Source: a virus
Length of the DNA: 32,678 nucleotides
Virus record (IMG/VR): IMGVR_UViG_3300024429_000024
Coordinates: 1 to 32,678 of that record
Direction: 5' to 3' (one strand)
The notes below the pieces were generated by a model. It was not told the DNA's origin, searched no databases, and saw only the letters and a program-made list of their open reading frames with translations. Positions within the stretch are counted from its first letter, which is position 1. Each line of letters starts with the position of its first letter. Shown one piece after another: positions 23,453-32,678 of the stretch. The position numbers and the translations under genes are program-made.

Positions 23453-23878
23453 TTAACCGGAACCAGAGCCTGAGTTAATGGATGGAGCCCCGGAAATTTT
23501 GATTGTTACGTCCTGTGTGACCTTGTCGTCAGTGGTAACAGCCAATCCCAAAGCAGTTACAAAAGCAGTGAAATTTATCGTCGTGTTATCATCATCTGGA
23601 AAGATAATTTCATACTGCTTCAACGAATCACTTTCAAAATCAGCAAGCATGATCTCTAATACGTCCCGTGTAAAATTCATCGCCAGCACCAGCTCGCCAG
23701 CATCCTTAAAGCTCGGGATAAATGTTCGGTAACCGCCTTCGGTATCAAGTGCAGTTGTGTCAATAGTCTCCCTGGTCATTCCTGGGCCTGTAATGCTATT
23801 AACTTCTGCGATGACCTCCCATTGGGTTAATTGAGGGTTATACCGTTTTAACTGAGTTCCTGCGCCTGCAATAGCCAT
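23453..23878 (-). CDS. Major tail tube protein (141 aa)
   Basis: The sequence AGAGTQLKRYNP..WEVIAEVNSITGPGMTRETIDTTALDTEGGYRTFIPSFKDAGEL is the classic phage tail tube N-terminal pattern (gpV-like), with the SI.GPG.TRE.ID motif and the KDAGEL turn. The C-terminus is a second beta-layer ending in a short Gly/Ser tail. It builds the hexameric rings of the tail tube. An AGGAGGTG ribosome site precedes the ATG. A strong terminator stands just upstream. Confidence 0.9.
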   Translation of the reverse strand: MAIAGAGTQLKRYNPQLTQWEVIAEVNSITGPGMTRETIDTTALDTEGGYRTFIPSFKDAGELVLAMNFTRDVLEIMLADFESDSLKQYEIIFPDDDNTTINFTAFVTALGLAVTTDDKVTQDVTIKISGAPSINSGSGSG

Positions 23879-25304: not shown

Positions 25305-25679
25305 TCAATCAAAACTCGGTACTGCGGTTATAGAAGCCCTCTTTTTCCCAACGCTTGCGGCCATTTTTCCGGTTGTGTCGAGAAGCATTACCTGCTGGCC
25401 ATAGGTGGTTGAATTAAGACCTTTCCCGGTCTTTCCGCCGTATGTGATACTTGCATCATCTGCTTTCTCAGTATGGGCTTGACGCTCTTTTGAACTTGCA
25501 ATCAGATGTGCAGTCAACCATCTTTCAATCTCTTTTAATTGGGCGGCAGTGATGACAGTGTCGGTGCCCAATATTGCAGTGACGGTAATATTTGCTGATA
25601 AAATAAAAGCATCTATATTTGGATTGCTCAAATCGGTGTCTATTATCTGTTTTACTTCACTTGGTTTTACACGAGCCAT
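25305..25679 (-). CDS. Head-tail connector, gp6-like (124 aa)
   Basis: The helical start (KPSEVKQIIDTDLSNPNIDAFILSANITVT) and the mid-part AAQLKEIERWLTAHLIASSK...YGGKTGKGLNSTTYGQQ are typical for phage head-tail connector proteins of the HK97 gp6/SPP1 gp15 type, which form a ring below the portal. The product normally acts directly after the capsid genes. Here it follows a sulfotransferase gene instead, so the cargo block seems to lie between head and connector genes. Confidence 0.8.
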   Translation of the reverse strand: MARVKPSEVKQIIDTDLSNPNIDAFILSANITVTAILGTDTVITAAQLKEIERWLTAHLIASSKERQAHTEKADDASITYGGKTGKGLNSTTYGQQVMLLDTTGKMAASVGKKRASITAVPSFD

Positions 25680-25681
25680 TT

Positions 25682-26407
25682 TTATACCTTATTCCTTGCA
25701 TGCCATAATTTAGGATCTATAAAGGATGCAACGACTTGACTATTCCACTTCAACCCGAGCCATTCAATTGTATCCATTATTTGAGTGTAATCACCTGATA
25801 CCATTCGCTCTGGCCAAATAACCTTGACGTTTAATCCAGCATCTTGCATTTCTCTAAATCGTTCAAGGTGTTTTTGTGCCCACCACAACCAACCATCATG
25901 GGCAGATTTAACCCCAACAGCTGTCTGGTTAGCGGGATTGCCGAAGGCTCGCATAAAATGGGTACGCATACACGAATCTGCAATATCCTCCGACTTTCTC
26001 CTAACTATAACCCATTTTGCATCCGGGAACGCATGGCTCCATATCGGCCACGTAAGACACATTTTTGCGCCTTTATACATCCATGACCCTTTAATATATC
26101 CATCTTGCTTGATAATCGATTCAACTCTGTCCTTCCAGTTCACAGGAATTGATAGTTTGTTGATTATGGGTAAAGGGTACTGCCCCATAGGGTCAAATCC
26201 CATTTCTCGTAAATATGGTTTGAGAACATCATTCCTTATTTTCACATTCTCAAACATACCCTTGGCATTGTTTTTGTTTGGCCCGGACATTTTGCCCCCA
26301 TAAGCACCACAACTATTAATCGCTCCCGCAATTAGGGATGTGCCTGATCTTGCAGCACCTGTGATCAAAATTGGGGATGGCATGTTGCTAGTAATTAAAT
26401 TTTTCAT
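25682..26407 (-). CDS. Sulfotransferase-family protein (241 aa)
   Basis: The P-loop-like PAPS-binding motif ITGAARSGTS lies at residues 15-24. The FENVKIRND and PFxx segments follow the family layout. The 3'-phosphate motif is seen in WVIVRRKSEDIADSCMR (R136/R137, S145). The enzyme would move sulfate from PAPS to a hydroxyl acceptor, here perhaps a sugar. The acceptor is unknown. The gene is immediately upstream of the neck genes in the transcript. I start at ATG 26407; an ATG eight codons later is also possible. Confidence 0.75.
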   Translation of the reverse strand: MKNLITSNMPSPILITGAARSGTSLIAGAINSCGAYGGKMSGPNKNNAKGMFENVKIRNDVLKPYLREMGFDPMGQYPLPIINKLSIPVNWKDRVESIIKQDGYIKGSWMYKGAKMCLTWPIWSHAFPDAKWVIVRRKSEDIADSCMRTHFMRAFGNPANQTAVGVKSAHDGWLWWAQKHLERFREMQDAGLNVKVIWPERMVSGDYTQIMDTIEWLGLKWNSQVVASFIDPKLWHARNKV

Positions 26408-26408
26408 T

Positions 26409-26639
26409 TTATTCACTACAATCAATTTCAGATATTTCTCTTTGTTTTTTGACTAAAGCAAGGCCATAACATACAGAACCAGTTGTAAAATTAATTTCTA
26501 GCTTGTGGCAAGTTTTACAATCAATTGTTGGGAAATAGATAGCTTTTTCACAATACATTTTTTTAATTTCTTTATTGTATCGTTCGGGATTACATTGATG
26601 AGTAAATAATAGTACGCAATTATCACATATTGATTTCAT
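26409..26639 (-). CDS. Small Cys-rich protein (76 aa)
   Basis: MKSICDNCVLLFTHQC, then YCEKA, DCKTCHKLE and late Cys residues make about ten Cys in all. Four to eight of them are likely metal ligands or disulfides. The function is unknown; it could bind zinc or a metal cluster, or chaperone the neighbouring transferases. The ATG 26639 overlaps the stop of the fusion glycosyltransferase gene as ATGA. A longer start at 26660 is less likely. Confidence 0.55.
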   Translation of the reverse strand: MKSICDNCVLLFTHQCNPERYNKEIKKMYCEKAIYFPTIDCKTCHKLEINFTTGSVCYGLALVKKQREISEIDCSE

Positions 26640-29026
26640 ATCCAATGTTCCTCTAACCAAGATGCCTCAATATCATGTGGCTTTGGCCTGTTTAAAAAGC
26701 ATATCACTCTTGCATCTTTGGGCAAACCAGATCGACAGTGTCTTTTATAACTATAAATTCCATTATGACTATCTTGAAAATATGGGATTGCATTATTTAT
26801 TGATCTAACACTATTAGTAATATATTCTATTTCATTTCCAGATTCTTCTTTTTTGAATTGGTCATAAATAAAAGAATATGTGCCGCCATTTTTCCAAAGC
26901 ATCATACCCGGAGCGAATAAACCCAACAGTTTGTTTTGTAGGTGCCATGGTTTTAGAGCTATAAAATCATCACGTTGAATCAATAACCTGTCTATGTTCC
27001 CGGTGATAATAGTATCGAGAGAAAAATAAATAATGTGTTTTGACGTAACCAGTCCGGACCTGAACATCTCAACCATTGACCCTTTTATTAAATTATCCTT
27101 TAGTATAATGCTTTCACATATCCCCAAAGGAATGTTTTTATCCGTTAAGCAGACAAATTTATATGGTACTGTTGTATTTCTCTCAATTCCCCGTTTTAAT
27201 TTTTCAACATATTGCAAATTAAAGCCGTCCCCGGTTTTATGAATGCATAATATAGTGATCGGCTCGGCTTCATATTTACGCTTAACTTGATTTTTTCTCT
27301 GGCCGTAGATAATTTTGCCATTCCCTCGCTCAGGCCAAAATAAAGTTGGCTTTCTGTCAGAAATTATATCATTTGCCGCTTTGGCCACATTGTTAACCGT
27401 CATTGTTGCCGTGTTCATGGCAAAATAGTTTTTATTCCATGTGTCCGGGGGGCATACATAACGATAAAATTTATTTCCATGGACTCCAATCTCGTAGAAA
27501 TCATTCCAAACCATAAGGGTTTTGCATCTAATTGCAGCCGACATAATAGTTAATCCAGAGGGGAACCCAAAAACCAATTCGCTGCCCCTTAAACATCCAA
27601 ATAACTGCTGCATATCTGTCTTACCGGTCAGATCCACAAGCTTTTTAATTTTACCTTTTGCCGCACTCAACTTTTTATCTTCTGCATCCCATTGTGCGCC
27701 AACGAGAACAGGGATAGCGTCATTCTCTTTGGAGATTTTATTTATTGCCTTGATTAGATTGTCAAGGCTAAATTCTTCTAACCATTTAACATAATGTCCA
27801 TAAAGCGGTAAATAGATGCAGAAATATTTCCCATATTGTTTAATGCAATTATTTTTAAAGTTTTCTTGATCCAAGGATACAAACATCGGAGGGTGCCAAT
27901 CACATTCATACTGAGGATCTACGTCTTCTAATTGAACGCCCCACCTGATATGACCATTATATGAAAGCATATAATCATGATCATAAATATCACGGAAAAC
28001 TGTCCGTCCCCTTTCAGAATAAGCCTCATTCCAAATCTTTTTTCCGTTTTCCATCTGTTTCATTGCAATGTGACCGCCAGCAGCATTAACAAAGGGGAAC
28101 ATTTGCAAAAACGGAACAGCCCGAACATGGCCATTGTATTTTTTGTCTTTGCCGGCAGCAATGCATATATCGGGCATATCTATTCCTTCCGATTTGAGGA
28201 ATGACTGCATTTTCACGATGGACCAATAAGAATCTCCCATCCCAGGTGGTACCAGTATTTTTACCCTTTTTTGAGTTGGCCTTGTTGCGTAAAATACAGA
28301 CCTTGTTTTCAAAGGATTTTTTATTGAATCAACTATAAATCCAATATTTTTCAACAAATTCGCCAGTTGTCCTTCGGTAAAAAACCAAACATGTTCAGAA
28401 TCTTTCCAATGATGGTTTCCTTTTTCGTTGAAGAAATTAGGAAAGTCAATAATGCATCTTCCGTTTTGCTTTGTTATCCTAAACATCTCTTTTATGAATT
28501 TCACGGGGTCCAACACGTGCTCCACTACATCATGGCAAGTCACGATATCAAAATGATCTGTGGGGAAATGGATATCCAATAAGCCTTTTCTGTAGATATA
28601 AGATCCATCTTCCTCGTAGTGATATTTTCCTAACTCACAACCAAATGATTTAAGCCCCCGAGACCTACATTCATCCACAAATGCCCCGCTGCCGGAACCA
28701 ACGTCAAGTATTTCAATGCCTTCAGTCTTGGCGGTTGGTATCTTGTATGATTCGCACCTTATGCCAGCCACTCTCCGGTCATGCTTATATGTTTTTTTAG
28801 TATATATTTTTTTAGTGGGTGGGTATCCCTCGTAATATTTATTATACTGTTTTTGCGTTTTAATGGCTGTTCCTGTCTGTCTTATGATTCCGCAACCATT
28901 ACAAGAGACCAGTTTTATGTCTTTCTTCTTTAATATCCCCTCATTGCTTACGGACACAGTGCTGTCTCTTTTGTATGGTTTTTTATTTTTGTTTCCGCAA
29001 ATGCATCTATTCATAATATTATCCAT
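26636..29026 (-). CDS. Methyltransferase / glycosyltransferase / glycosyltransferase fusion (796 aa)
   Basis: Three enzymes appear in one chain. Residues 1-50 hold a zinc ribbon (C8, C10, C42, C45). Residues about 60-250 are a Class I SAM methyltransferase: EILDVGSGSGAF at 105-116 (motif I), DIVTCHDVVEHVLDP, IIDFPNFF. About 255-590 is a GT-B domain with PGMGDSYW (261-268) and GFPSGLTIMSAAI, as in GT9 heptosyltransferases. About 600-796 is a GT-A-like domain: ITILCIHKTGDGFNLQYVEK, then IIYFSLDTIITGNIDRLL with a DxD-like LDT, and GLFAPGMMLW. It would build and methylate a surface glycan (inference). It overlaps both neighbours. Confidence 0.75.
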   Translation of the reverse strand: MDNIMNRCICGNKNKKPYKRDSTVSVSNEGILKKKDIKLVSCNGCGIIRQTGTAIKTQKQYNKYYEGYPPTKKIYTKKTYKHDRRVAGIRCESYKIPTAKTEGIEILDVGSGSGAFVDECRSRGLKSFGCELGKYHYEEDGSYIYRKGLLDIHFPTDHFDIVTCHDVVEHVLDPVKFIKEMFRITKQNGRCIIDFPNFFNEKGNHHWKDSEHVWFFTEGQLANLLKNIGFIVDSIKNPLKTRSVFYATRPTQKRVKILVPPGMGDSYWSIVKMQSFLKSEGIDMPDICIAAGKDKKYNGHVRAVPFLQMFPFVNAAGGHIAMKQMENGKKIWNEAYSERGRTVFRDIYDHDYMLSYNGHIRWGVQLEDVDPQYECDWHPPMFVSLDQENFKNNCIKQYGKYFCIYLPLYGHYVKWLEEFSLDNLIKAINKISKENDAIPVLVGAQWDAEDKKLSAAKGKIKKLVDLTGKTDMQQLFGCLRGSELVFGFPSGLTIMSAAIRCKTLMVWNDFYEIGVHGNKFYRYVCPPDTWNKNYFAMNTATMTVNNVAKAANDIISDRKPTLFWPERGNGKIIYGQRKNQVKRKYEAEPITILCIHKTGDGFNLQYVEKLKRGIERNTTVPYKFVCLTDKNIPLGICESIILKDNLIKGSMVEMFRSGLVTSKHIIYFSLDTIITGNIDRLLIQRDDFIALKPWHLQNKLLGLFAPGMMLWKNGGTYSFIYDQFKKEESGNEIEYITNSVRSINNAIPYFQDSHNGIYSYKRHCRSGLPKDARVICFLNRPKPHDIEASWLEEHWI

Positions 29027-30032
29027 TCTCTTGATTGCATATCAATCCAGCTATTTGATTAGGTCTCATTGATTCGCCATCAATTTGGGTCCTATGAGGG
29101 AATGAAGTCCATGAATAGCTTGATGGGTTATTATAGATAATATATTGTTTTACTTTATGATAACTGGCAAAAACGCCAAGCATGCCATCTAATCCAACAA
29201 ATAACTTAGAATTGACCATCAATGCATGTAGCATTGACAGGCTTGGAGATAAATATCTTGATATTCCCTCAATCTCAAAATCTCCTTTTTGGCCAATTTG
29301 TATAAGATTAAATGAATTTCTTAATTTTATACAAATTTTTTGCATGTTAAGCGCGCCGTAGTCTTTCCATTTCCTGCTCATATTTCCTCTTTTTGAGCAA
29401 GACTGTATAAGTATATATGGTTTTGATATATCGGTTGGCAAAGTAGCAATTTCACCATTATATTTTGCACTTATACCTTTTTTATAAACTAATTCCAAAC
29501 CGGTATTTATGTTAAAATTATCAACCATGCTTTTTACAAAGAACTCTTTGTCGCTTTTAGTATATTTCATATGACCGGAAATATAATCATAGTCTGGCGA
29601 ATGATCAGATGGATTATTGAAATATGTTTTACCAGCTATTTTTACGTCAAAACTATCAATAATTTGATTAATGATATCTGGCAACATAACCGGGCCAGCC
29701 CCGCGCCTTGCAACGGTCTTTCCCACCATATTTAAATATATGTCAATGTTGGGAAATTGGATATTAACCATCTTTAAAACAGACAGAGCCATCATCCAAT
29801 CGCCAATTCCAGAATACATTCTGTAGGCTAATAAACTTTTCCTTTGTTTTATTTGTGGGGATATATTCTCGCTGATGCCAGTCATTACATTCTGCCCGTT
29901 TACATTAGATGTATAAAGAATTTTACTGACTTTGCCACAAGCAAGACATTCTTCGCTATAATTGTTTATTTCACGGAAATCTCTGCTCCCGCAAGTGCAA
30001 GTATGGTTCGTGTAACTAACTCTTCTTGGCAT
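29019..30032 (-). CDS. Zinc-ribbon GT9/heptosyltransferase-like protein (337 aa)
   Basis: The N-terminus holds C12-x-C14 and C29-x2-C32, a zinc ribbon similar to the one opening the 796-aa fusion. About 65-330 resembles GT-B glycosyltransferases of the heptosyltransferase type: SGIGDWMMALSVLK (74-87), then PYILIQSCSKRGNMSRKW and LMVNSKLFVGLDGMLGVFA, which would contact the donor nucleotide sugar. The donor and acceptor are unknown. It is the next gene upstream of the fusion, overlapping it by eight bases, so both probably act on the same glycan. Confidence 0.7.
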   Translation of the reverse strand: MPRRVSYTNHTCTCGSRDFREINNYSEECLACGKVSKILYTSNVNGQNVMTGISENISPQIKQRKSLLAYRMYSGIGDWMMALSVLKMVNIQFPNIDIYLNMVGKTVARRGAGPVMLPDIINQIIDSFDVKIAGKTYFNNPSDHSPDYDYISGHMKYTKSDKEFFVKSMVDNFNINTGLELVYKKGISAKYNGEIATLPTDISKPYILIQSCSKRGNMSRKWKDYGALNMQKICIKLRNSFNLIQIGQKGDFEIEGISRYLSPSLSMLHALMVNSKLFVGLDGMLGVFASYHKVKQYIIYNNPSSYSWTSFPHRTQIDGESMRPNQIAGLICNQENG

Positions 30033-30688
30033 TAATAATTTGTCCGCCTTATTTCAATCTCTGAAATATCTAAAGTTTTATAGGTCGCGGATACAGTATA
30101 AATTACCTTTGCCGCCTCATCGGGATCGATCAATTTATCATGATCTTGTCGGTGCGCCGTCATGCCAGTTTTCATTGCACCAAGAAAGACATCAGTTATC
30201 ATAATATTGAACTTTGCGGCCTCCACCCGTAGCGATTGAGAAAAACCACGTAATCCAAATTTGCTTGAAGAATATGCCGACTCTCCACTGCTACCATGTT
30301 TTCCCGCAACTGAGTTTATATTAATAACATGGCCCCTGACATTTTTCCTGAAGATTGGCCATATCGCCTTTGTCAACTTAATTGGCACAGCAAGATTTAT
30401 TTCCATAATATGCCGATAATCACGTTCAGACATGTCGTTAAATTGTTTATTCTGATAGATCGCCGCATTATTGATCAGAACATCTACATTTCTTTCCCTG
30501 GCTATTTTTGCCAATGCGGGGATTGTTTTATTGTCTGCAAGATCACCTTTTACGACATCTATATTTTCATTCATAGATGCCCCGATATTTTTTGAATTCA
30601 AGATTAAATGATAGCCCCCAACAAGGAATGCTTTAGTCAATGATAACCCTAGCCCCCTTGTTGCCCCTGTTATTAATACTGTTTTCAT
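30032..30688 (-). CDS. Short-chain dehydrogenase/reductase (218 aa)
   Basis: Full SDR signature: TGATRGLG (7-14) for the NAD(P) Rossmann fold, NNAA (73-76), N98, S126 and Y139-x3-K143, the catalytic Asn-Ser-Tyr-Lys tetrad. The length is slightly below the usual 240-260. The likely reaction is oxidation or reduction of a hydroxyl or keto group, perhaps on a sugar nucleotide. Alternatives, such as a fatty-acid type ketoreductase, cannot be excluded. The ATG overlaps the stop of the small membrane gene upstream. Confidence 0.85.
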   Translation of the reverse strand: MKTVLITGATRGLGLSLTKAFLVGGYHLILNSKNIGASMNENIDVVKGDLADNKTIPALAKIARERNVDVLINNAAIYQNKQFNDMSERDYRHIMEINLAVPIKLTKAIWPIFRKNVRGHVININSVAGKHGSSGESAYSSSKFGLRGFSQSLRVEAAKFNIMITDVFLGAMKTGMTAHRQDHDKLIDPDEAAKVIYTVSATYKTLDISEIEIRRTNY

Positions 30689-30858
30689 AATAATTTTTTT
30701 CTTCTAAAATATTCTATCCCAAATCCAATAAATAGAGGGAAGATTAACTGCCAATTGTTTAAAAATAATTGTGATTCAGTAAGTTGAGGATTTGTAAATC
30801 TTAAATAAATTCCCCAATATAAAGAAACGATCAATATGATTAGTTGCCCTGTTCTCAT
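30685..30858 (-). CDS. Small two-span membrane protein (57 aa)
   Basis: The gene runs from ATG 30858 to TGA 30685, which overlaps the SDR start. The protein has two hydrophobic segments (GQLIILIVSLYWGIYL and LIFPLFIGFGIEYF), followed by a basic end RRKKLL. It looks like a small inner-membrane hairpin. The role is unknown; it could anchor the enzymes of this block. Confidence 0.5.
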   Translation of the reverse strand: MRTGQLIILIVSLYWGIYLRFTNPQLTESQLFLNNWQLIFPLFIGFGIEYFRRKKLL

Positions 30859-30861
30859 TCT

Positions 30862-30969
30862 TTATAACTCTTCATCGGTCATTATTCGTAAATTATATTG
30901 ACCATTGAAAAATATAGCCAAAAATAGTGAGAAAAGACCTATCCCTATATACCTGATAATCTTTTTCAT
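30862..30969 (-). CDS. Very small membrane protein (35 aa)
   Basis: ATG 30969 overlaps the stop of the transketolase-like gene (ATGA). The product has a basic start (MKKIIRY) and one hydrophobic span (IGIGLFSLFLAIFF), then a polar end. Tight coupling on its 5' side supports a real gene. Function unknown. Confidence 0.5.
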   Translation of the reverse strand: MKKIIRYIGIGLFSLFLAIFFNGQYNLRIMTDEEL

Positions 30970-31448
30970 AATATCGGCAATCCGTCTTTCTTCAAGCAAA
31001 TAATAGCCGGTTCTGCCATTAAATATGAGTCAAACATGGCTTTCTCTGTTTCCGCCATATTTCGGGGGAAATAACCATGGGTGTTTTTCAACAAACCGAC
31101 AAGCCCTTCTGCATTTAATGGCCTGTGGGAAACTCCATGAGTGGGATAATCGGCATTCCCCACCAGCATGACCGGTAGTTTTTGCCCGTCTATATCAAGC
31201 TTTATCTGCTCAAATGGCCGCTCAATTAAAAAAGGTGTCAATGTATAGACTACCGGCCTCAATCCCTCTATCGCCATCCCTGCGGCTATGCTTATCGTGC
31301 TCTGTTCTGTAAGCCCTGTGTTAAAGAATCTATCCGGGAATTTTTCCACGAACTCTTCCATCTCCTGGAAAACATCGCAGATCAGAAGGATGATCCGGGG
31401 ATCTTTTGTTGCAAGTTTTACGATTGTTTTTCCGAACTGTCTACGCAT
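30966..31448 (-). CDS. Stand-alone transketolase pyrimidine-binding-domain protein (160 aa)
   Basis: The sequence matches the PYR domain of transketolase/DXS-type enzymes: RRQFGKTIVKLATKDPRIIL, FFNTGLTEQSTISIAAGMAIEG with the conserved catalytic-type Glu (E48), then VYTLTPFLIERPFEQIKLDI and GVSHRPLNAEGL. The protein stops after this domain, lacking both the PP (ThDP) domain and the C-terminal domain. Split transketolases usually have a PP subunit plus a PYR-C subunit of about 310 aa. A partner may lie outside the window. ATG 31448 overlaps the pyruvate-kinase-like gene. Confidence 0.8.
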   Translation of the reverse strand: MRRQFGKTIVKLATKDPRIILLICDVFQEMEEFVEKFPDRFFNTGLTEQSTISIAAGMAIEGLRPVVYTLTPFLIERPFEQIKLDIDGQKLPVMLVGNADYPTHGVSHRPLNAEGLVGLLKNTHGYFPRNMAETEKAMFDSYLMAEPAIICLKKDGLPIL

Positions 31449-32145
31449 GGTACAAATCCACCATCTTACGCACAAACTGCACGCATTCTATGGGATATTT
31501 CCCGATTGCCGTCTCAGCGGCTAGCACCAACCCGTCAACCCCCAGCATAAGTAATGTTGCGATATCATTCACCTCGGCCTGTGTTGGCTGTGGACTTCCA
31601 ACCATTGATTCCAGGAGATTTGTTGCTACCCATACAGGGGTTTTCATTCCCTTGCACGTCAGTATAATTTCCCGGCATATTCGGGGTATCTCCTCAGGTG
31701 GAAATGATTTTGACAGGTCGCCACGGTCAATTAAGATAATATCAGCGGCATCTATTATTTCTGTTTTATTATTTACTCCACGCTTATCTTCTATCTTGGC
31801 GATAATCATATTTTTATCTTTAAGTCTCATCTGTTCTATGGGTTTCGCGCTTTGTGCAAATGAGATGGCAAATTGATCAACTGATTCAACGAATTTAGTC
31901 CATGCCCTAGCATCGAAATTCGTGAAATCAATGTCACTGGAGGGGGGACAAAACTTCTTGCCATGGGTATCAAGACAAGTTTTTGCACCGGTTTCCGTTC
32001 GAACCATGCCAATAAATGCTTTAATCTCATCCATCTCATTGGTATAAGAAAGATTCAACCGAAAAATAGTAACACCGGCACACCAAAGCTTTCTAACCAT
32101 TGATGGTGAATTTGTCGCCGGGCCTATTGTGCATACTATTTCCAT
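31441..32145 (-). CDS. Pyruvate-kinase-like barrel lacking lid and C-domain (234 aa)
   Basis: The chain aligns by motif with the barrel of pyruvate kinase: VCTIGPATNS (4-13), FRLNLSY with R29, N31, S33, LDTHG with D59, IIAKIEDKRGV with K117/E119, DRGDL with D143, VATNLLESM with T175, and the E211-T212 pair. Normal enzymes have about 470 aa; the roughly 100-aa B domain after the LDTHG region and the C-terminal regulatory domain are absent. The binding residues remain, so it may act on a related enolpyruvyl or keto-acid substrate rather than as a true kinase. ATG 32145 has GGTGGG upstream. Confidence 0.75.
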   Translation of the reverse strand: MEIVCTIGPATNSPSMVRKLWCAGVTIFRLNLSYTNEMDEIKAFIGMVRTETGAKTCLDTHGKKFCPPSSDIDFTNFDARAWTKFVESVDQFAISFAQSAKPIEQMRLKDKNMIIAKIEDKRGVNNKTEIIDAADIILIDRGDLSKSFPPEEIPRICREIILTCKGMKTPVWVATNLLESMVGSPQPTQAEVNDIATLLMLGVDGLVLAAETAIGKYPIECVQFVRKMVDLYHA

Positions 32146-32146
32146 A

Positions 32147-32678
32147 TCAATCCCACCATAACAAGTTTGTGAAGCCATACTTTTCCAGAAATGGCCGGAG
32201 CACCGGTTGTGATTCTTTCAATCTTCGCCATGGCCCCGGTAATTTCTTTTGCAAAGCAACTGTATCAAAGTTTGCATAATCAACCCTTAAATCACATTCT
32301 CCCGGAGTATTATTTATGCGTTCTGCCGGCTTAAGGCTGTCTAACCAATCATAATGATATTGAGGATATCCAGGTGACAAGCCGACTCCAACTATCGCAT
32401 TAACAAAACCTTGTTGGTCAAACGGATCCATCCGCCAGAACTTGACTCCCAATGTTTCACCCTTGTTTGCAATATTAATCCAGGCATCCAATAACCAATC
32501 ATAAGGATATAGAGGCGGTTCCCGGTGCCAGGCACGAATCATGCACAATAGCGGATCTCTGAGGGGTGATAGCGTCGGGACAACCAACATCATTGACTCT
32601 TGTGCTGATTGTGGGTACCAACGGTAGAAAGGTGACTGAACCGCCCCGTAATGCTCATATAAAAAGTGAACTTGCCGA
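32147..32678 (-). CDS. Partial sulfotransferase-like protein, runs off the window
   Basis: The frame is open past the right end (an internal ATG at 32593 is not necessarily the start), so only the last 176 codons are visible. The part VVPTLSPLRDPLLCMIRAWH followed by YPYDWLLDAWINIAN resembles the 3'-phosphate-binding RDP...S region of sulfotransferases, though the Ser is replaced. The rest (PGECDLRVDYANFDTVALQK) is less clear. It ends with LLWWD and is two bases before the pyruvate-kinase-like start. The assignment is weak. Confidence 0.45.
   Translation of the reverse strand, partial: RQVHFLYEHYGAVQSPFYRWYPQSAQESMMLVVPTLSPLRDPLLCMIRAWHREPPLYPYDWLLDAWINIANKGETLGVKFWRMDPFDQQGFVNAIVGVGLSPGYPQYHYDWLDSLKPAERINNTPGECDLRVDYANFDTVALQKKLPGPWRRLKESQPVLRPFLEKYGFTNLLWWD

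Follow-up and report, generated by a model that had tools for sequence, protein, structure and literature searches.

A conserved but variable gene island between capsid and connector genes of uncultivated tailed phages, predicted to glycosylate and sulfate the virion

The block of glycan-type genes at the right end of the window (the whole stretch of DNA analysed, a linear virus record of 32,678 bases) appears to be part of an island which is real, conserved but internally variable, and whose connector end is taken up by a sulfotransferase. The island is most likely a virion glycosylation and sulfation system, with activity, acceptor and glycan predicted. We consider it probable that the island is expressed late and directed at the virion, where a glycan containing an unusual sugar would be built on a structural protein and sulfated from PAPS. 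This view builds on the gene content, its conserved position, the motifs and the fold of the sulfotransferase and the near absence of membrane proteins, which were established here.

In the proposed scheme, the block of the window would form the side of the island that faces the connector. The island itself would be expressed late and occupy a constant site, flanked by the major capsid gene and the head-tail connector gene, in uncultivated tailed phages that are probably virulent. The glycan would be built on a structural protein by soluble glycosyltransferases (GTs), among them a conserved GT42-like enzyme whose gene lies on the capsid side. Epimerases, dehydratases, a short-chain dehydrogenase (SDR), a Zn-alcohol dehydrogenase, a two-part transketolase and methyltransferases would make or decorate the unusual sugar, and the conserved sulfotransferase would add sulfate from PAPS, supplied in some relatives by an APS-kinase-like enzyme of the phage. 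The tail-tube protein with its C-terminal Ser/Gly tail, a capsid protein, or both may serve as acceptor. The presumed benefit would lie in surface charge, adsorption or evasion of recognition.

The cargo block and its site in related phages

The right-hand half of the window forms a single leftward gene series. Read from the right end to the left, it contains a truncated sulfotransferase-type gene, a pyruvate kinase (PK)-type barrel, a transketolase pyrimidine-binding (Transket_pyr) protein, an SDR, a GT9-like protein, a fusion protein, an 83-aa ORF and the sulfotransferase (Table 1). The seven leftward cargo ORFs span positions 25682-32677 directly ahead of the DUF4054 connector and the tail cassette, in which an HK97-gp10-like protein, a terminator, the major tail protein, the tail chaperone and the tape measure follow the connector. 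A preliminary description had named these seven genes, their order, their common direction and their place ahead of the connector, all of which was confirmed by ORFs and by Pfam, PHROG and phmmer matches, for the GT9-like protein by motif only. Its statement of overlapping ends held insofar as the cargo gene ends overlap or abut, with the sole exception of a 277-bp gap (30689-30965); the 83-aa ORF it had left unmentioned. The gap, between the transketolase domain and the SDR, is filled by two very short ORFs of 57 and about 30 aa (30685-30858 and about 30876-30967, minus strand) with hydrophobic, membrane-type segments. The Cys-rich 83-aa ORF between fusion and sulfotransferase is possibly metal-binding. 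Scans for promoters and terminators separating the cargo block gave no more than shuffled sequences did, so nothing marks the block as a unit separate from the tail transcript, a separation which the preliminary description had named as evidence against its proposal. Near DNA matches to the window were not found in the phage records.

Table 1. Features of the leftward gene series in the window, listed from the right end to the left
Feature	Coordinates	Strand	Basis and remarks
Second sulfotransferase-type gene	32147..32677	-	176 aa left, cut by the window end; phmmer matches to c31-type genes of relatives
PK-type barrel without B and C domains	31441..32178	-	Start more likely at 32145; Pfam PK 1e-40
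Transketolase pyrimidine-binding subunit, without Transket_C	30966..31475	-	Start more likely at 31448, with ATGCGTAG overlap onto the PK stop; Pfam 5e-16
Short-chain dehydrogenase (SDR)	30032..30688	-	Pfam 2e-40; relatives in L008, L020, L031, L042 and L061
GT9-like protein, 337 aa, orphan	29019..30032	-	Motif reading only
Methyltransferase / GT9-like / PHROG 1962 glycosyltransferase fusion, 796 aa	26636..29026	-	Pfam, PHROG
83-aa Cys-rich ORF	26409..26660	-	ORF call; no Pfam, PHROG or other library match
TPST-like PAPS sulfotransferase (predicted), conserved	25682..26425	-	60 viral relatives, invariant PAPS motifs, fold
Head-tail connector, DUF4054	25305..25679	-	Pfam 1.7e-4, PHROG 302; adjoins the sulfotransferase in relatives
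Major tail (tube) protein, Ser/Gly C-terminal tail ...SINSGSGSG	23453..23878	-	PHROG 158, 3e-19

Scanning IMG/VR with the sulfotransferase yielded 60 relatives (48-71% identity), nearly all of which carry the same tail cassette after the sulfotransferase. Of 77 viral loci holding both genes, 74 have the sulfotransferase ahead of DUF4054, and in 44 the two are no more than 30 bp apart; a distance of 390-573 bp in a further 22 of the 77 leaves room for an APS-kinase-like gene. As a sample selected by the sulfotransferase is biased by its own query, the search was repeated with capsid sequences from ten extended relatives as queries. Of the 80 loci selected in this way (dereplication at 90% capsid identity), 48 continue for 1.5 kb or more beyond the capsid gene. 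Among these 48, a GT42-like gene was present in 45 and a small gene, c11, in 46. The sulfotransferase was located between capsid and DUF4054 in 27 of the 32 dereplicated capsid-selected relatives that reach DUF4054, and was absent in 5. The distance from capsid to connector ranged from 274 to 9,784 bp. This recurrence of the arrangement is far above chance; glycan-type cargo inside the structural series with tail genes following, as claimed for the window, was borne out. The refuting case of the preliminary description, random host genes with no neighbourhood shared among related phages, clearly did not apply, and the cargo is not random.

In the relatives the genes are ordered terminase, portal, head morphogenesis, PHROG 760, decoration, capsid, c11, GT42-like gene, variable glycan genes, sulfotransferase, in some cases an APS-kinase-like gene, and connector. 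Metabolic genes have therefore not taken the place of capsid or portal genes; in these relatives the terminase, portal, head and capsid genes precede the block and keep their customary order. The window itself stops short of the capsid and GT42-like genes; judged from the relatives, its own order past 32678 would be the same. Cultivated phages with related tail cassettes pass from capsid to adaptor without glycan genes between them. An empty site was seen in one uncultivated relative (L158:11092-11363), where DUF4054 follows the capsid gene after 274 bp without c11, GT42-like gene and sulfotransferase. In three loci (L004, L005 and L007) the sulfotransferase lies just after DUF4054 and not before it, in L004 with a further GT42-like gene between. 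In one locus (L171:7066-8000), a weaker transketolase-type pair precedes the PHROG 760 gene instead of occupying the usual cargo position. The c11 product (L099:8247-8783 and relatives) is a small unannotated protein whose gene adjoins that of the capsid in nearly all island-bearing relatives and is lacking from the empty site of L158; it may be an acceptor or an accessory protein of the capsid.

The connector-side sulfotransferase and its sulfate donor

By its motifs and its fold we identify the gene adjoining the connector as a predicted PAPS sulfotransferase. The Pfam match to Sulfotransfer_3 (E 4e-5) lies just under the curated cutoff. The 5'-phosphosulfate-binding loop (G-x-x-R-S-G-T) is present, with T22, G23, A25, R26, S27, G28 and T29 invariant in 42 sequences and its key residues at least 96% conserved in 84 sequences; the 3'-phosphate-binding residues R142, R143 and S151 are invariant in the former set and 98-100% conserved in the latter. 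The top of the list of fold matches to the structural model (pLDDT 89) consists entirely of sulfotransferases (Z 15 to 10). A median dN/dS of 0.22 (39 pairs) indicates purifying selection.

The nearest folds are tyrosylprotein sulfotransferases (TPSTs; Z 14.9-15.2 versus 13.2 for the next), ahead of mycobacterial, polyketide and heparan sulfotransferases (13 to 11). Likeness to TPST1 and TPST2 extends to fold and PAPS-site motifs, at about 17% identity. However, the best sequence match to a solved structure, again a TPST, is weak and not significant (E 0.018), and for this reason the enzyme was not filed as a TPST. That it sulfates tyrosines of virion proteins, with the glycan genes being a separate matter, appears quite improbable to us. 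This alternative draws on the nearest fold (Z 15 against at most 13), on those sequence matches and on the bacterial precedent of an APS kinase with a protein sulfotransferase, RaxQ and RaxST (PMC4216712), while no conserved tyrosine tracks the enzyme, its gene is embedded among glycan enzymes, unlike in the TPST case, and the second sulfotransferases vary with the glycan enzymes.

In 50,697 phage records, no match to the sulfotransferase was obtained at E 1e-3. A host search with the capsid protein against 395, 400 and 392 genomes of three phyla returned one strong match, a 33-kb phage contig in the metagenome-assembled genome G181; its binning is weak evidence for this phylum as host. In 297 genomes of the same phylum, the sulfotransferase profile scored 398 bits only on that phage contig and at most 56 bits elsewhere, thus no close cellular source was found in those 297 genomes.

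Most relatives that possess an APS-kinase-like gene (c19) carry it 2-84 bp downstream of the sulfotransferase. It was found in 22 of 58 sulfotransferase-selected loci versus 2 of 32 capsid-selected ones, and the latter count marks it as accessory. Its product exceeds the cutoff of Pfam APS_kinase (5e-18), while the NCBIfam apsK score of 59.7 bits stays below the cutoff of 138.7 and the C-terminal lid region has diverged; PAPS supply by the phage is therefore putative. By description, the arrangement resembles RaxST with RaxP/RaxQ of Xanthomonas, where the bacterial sulfotransferase depends on a dedicated APS kinase (PMC4216712). Unlike RaxST, which according to PMC6637879 serves a secreted peptide, the phage enzyme has no secretion genes beside it. 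A second, different APS-kinase-like protein, unlike the one following the sulfotransferase in other relatives, is encoded in the cargo of one locus (L099:12235-12702); the profile that it matches gave weak matches in two Pelagibacter loci with the transketolase pair.

The role of phage sulfotransferases has been stated to be unclear (PMC10580990). The Sulfotransfer_3 genes of marine phages described there are isolated and come from single genomes, whereas here a large group of uncultivated phages has the sulfotransferase as a near-core gene, at a fixed position between capsid and connector genes and sometimes next to a putative PAPS-making gene. The fixed site and the natural empty-site relative turn this open role into a defined test.

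Variable sugar genes around a conserved core

In 150 cargo proteins of the relatives, the commonest Pfam families were GT2, epimerases, GDP-mannose dehydratase and several methyltransferases including FkbM, together with GT11, SDR, radical SAM and GT47; the phage glycosyltransferase family PHROG 1962 was matched by 35 of the 150. The set of the window recurs in two relatives (L031 and L008), which encode Zn-alcohol dehydrogenase, Transketolase_N, Transket_pyr, SDR, fusion and both sulfotransferases. The preliminary description had seen in the block a coherent set for making and transferring a sugar. Its reading of the cargo as glycan enzymes was upheld, but the conserved core is the sulfotransferase plus the GT42-like gene, and the sugar-making genes between them vary.

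The GT42-like gene on the capsid side (c6) would have its counterpart beyond the end of the window. Its family is named sialyltransferase in PHROGs, and its model (pLDDT 86) resembles the GT42 sialyltransferases CstI and CstII (Z 11-12); this match is tied with an MptE-type kinase (8sd5, Z 11.2). The fusion protein combines a Methyltransf_23 domain (Pfam 3e-17), a middle GT9-like domain, matched marginally by the window protein (Pfam E 0.16) but significantly by a homologue (5e-12), and a C-terminal GT of PHROG 1962. Fusions 39-47% identical to it were found in six relatives (L008, L015, L016, L020, L031 and L042). For the separate 337-aa protein, searches of Pfam, PHROG and other profile libraries gave no significant match, and its candidate GT9 label derives from motif reading; its alignment to the middle domain of the fusion by hhalign was not significant. 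The truncated gene at the window end had no Pfam match and is akin to a second sulfotransferase-type gene of relatives (c31-type; phmmer 4e-10 to L120 and 3e-5 to L099), which in L099 bears a PQSGTW sulfotransferase-type motif.

The Transket_pyr protein is 69-75% identical to proteins of two phage loci (L008 and L031). Its best solved relative is the split transketolase 6yaj, matched over the Pyr domain only (169 versus 341 aa). The thiamine-diphosphate subunit, Transketolase_N, is absent from the window and is encoded beside the Pyr gene or close to it in both these loci; the partner of the window's gene may be located beyond 32678. Cells have this pair as well: in nearly all cellular loci examined, Transketolase_N immediately precedes the gene for the Pyr domain, and several also have an alcohol dehydrogenase and an SDR, with, by sequence reading, a cytidylyltransferase-like gene nearby. 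This company points to a sugar pathway rather than to central metabolism.

The PK-type protein has the A-domain barrel and aligns with PK residues 8-53 and 186-329 only; about 54-185 are unaligned and the protein ends at about 329. Its family score of 170 bits compares to a cutoff of 306. Since the B and the C domain are both missing, it is probably not a pyruvate kinase. Close viral relatives of this gene were not found, and among the viral loci examined it occurs in the window only. Matches to PK and transketolase in the 'phages' collection were discarded, as they come from draft records or records lacking annotation, a few of them named after hosts, and look like cellular DNA. The transketolase and PK homology claimed before was confirmed, yet both proteins lack domains and neither is an ordinary enzyme of central carbon metabolism. 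Auxiliary metabolic genes redirecting the carbon metabolism of the host during infection, which such homology might suggest, are in our view very unlikely, since the missing domains include the C-terminal domain of the transketolase, both genes sit among GTs and sulfotransferases, and most relatives have the island without either.

Target and acceptor of the modification

At least two predicted TM segments were found by a simple hydropathy scan in only 1 of 346 cargo proteins of at least 120 aa. In 18 records of up to 75 kb, most of which may be fragments, integrase or resolvase families (PF00589, PF00239) had no match. Together with the position in the structural operon, these results favour the virion over the host envelope as target; of the two possibilities left side by side in the preliminary description, the host surface is thus the lesser one. 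An island remodelling the host envelope would extend, methylate and sulfate a surface polysaccharide, and block superinfecting phages or spare progeny from loss on debris. In its favour, clusters for surface polysaccharides contain the same enzyme classes, sugar-type clusters of cells contain the transketolase pair, and 3 of the 150 cargo proteins, all GTs, match a GtrB-like PHROG. However, with essentially no membrane proteins there is no flippase, polymerase or GtrA-type partner, no sign of lysogeny was detected, and the site is fixed between capsid and connector genes, which makes this explanation unlikely. The island differs from the Gtr-type serotype-conversion modules of temperate phages in the same two respects, the all but missing multi-pass membrane partners and the lack of integrase and resolvase matches.

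Some phage GTs act on DNA, as cited in PMC12619734, and sugar or sulfate might accordingly hypermodify phage DNA. We give this idea hardly any credence, as the block is positioned in the structural operon and the families most often matched by cargo proteins include no nucleotide-hydroxylating or thymidine-modifying one.

Phage virion glycosylation is already known, and loci of this type likewise have GT genes linked to structural genes. Mycobacterium phages encode GTs, and glycans were reported on the C-termini of their capsid and tail-tube subunits (Freeman et al. 2023, as cited in PMC12619734). Similarly, GTs are encoded here next to the capsid gene and the tail-tube protein carries a Ser/Gly tail. 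In contrast, the island, known from its genes, combines swappable cargo, which reaches about 10 kb, at one fixed site with a conserved sulfotransferase and sometimes an APS-kinase-like gene. New would be the predicted sulfation, the possible synthesis of its donor and the cassette exchange at a fixed site; in the open-access literature no phage locus of this kind was found, most subscription papers being outside this search. Tentatively, we suggest that sulfate is added to the virions by the phages themselves, with PAPS of their own making in some relatives: a TPST-like enzyme would act on tyrosines of structural proteins and/or on the phage-built glycan. The make-up of this glycan would be swapped between relatives by cassette exchange, resulting in a self-made, diversifying sulfated coat on a prokaryotic virus. 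This raises the question whether virions are sulfated, on what, and whether cassette exchange alters their surface much as O-antigen loci alter bacterial surfaces.

The Ser/Gly C-terminal tail, present on the tail-tube protein of most relatives, is a candidate glycan acceptor. It is absent in the relative without the locus (L158), in one without a detected GT42-like gene (L170) and in six cultivated relatives, but also in three dereplicated locus-bearing relatives, and ancestry confounds this comparison of tail and locus. Tyrosines co-varying with the sulfotransferase were not found. Many capsid proteins contain a well-conserved acidic stretch, YETxLDEDYD (alignment A1, residues about 262-275), which resembles tyrosine-sulfation sites; this DEDY-type motif is kept also in relatives without the sulfotransferase.
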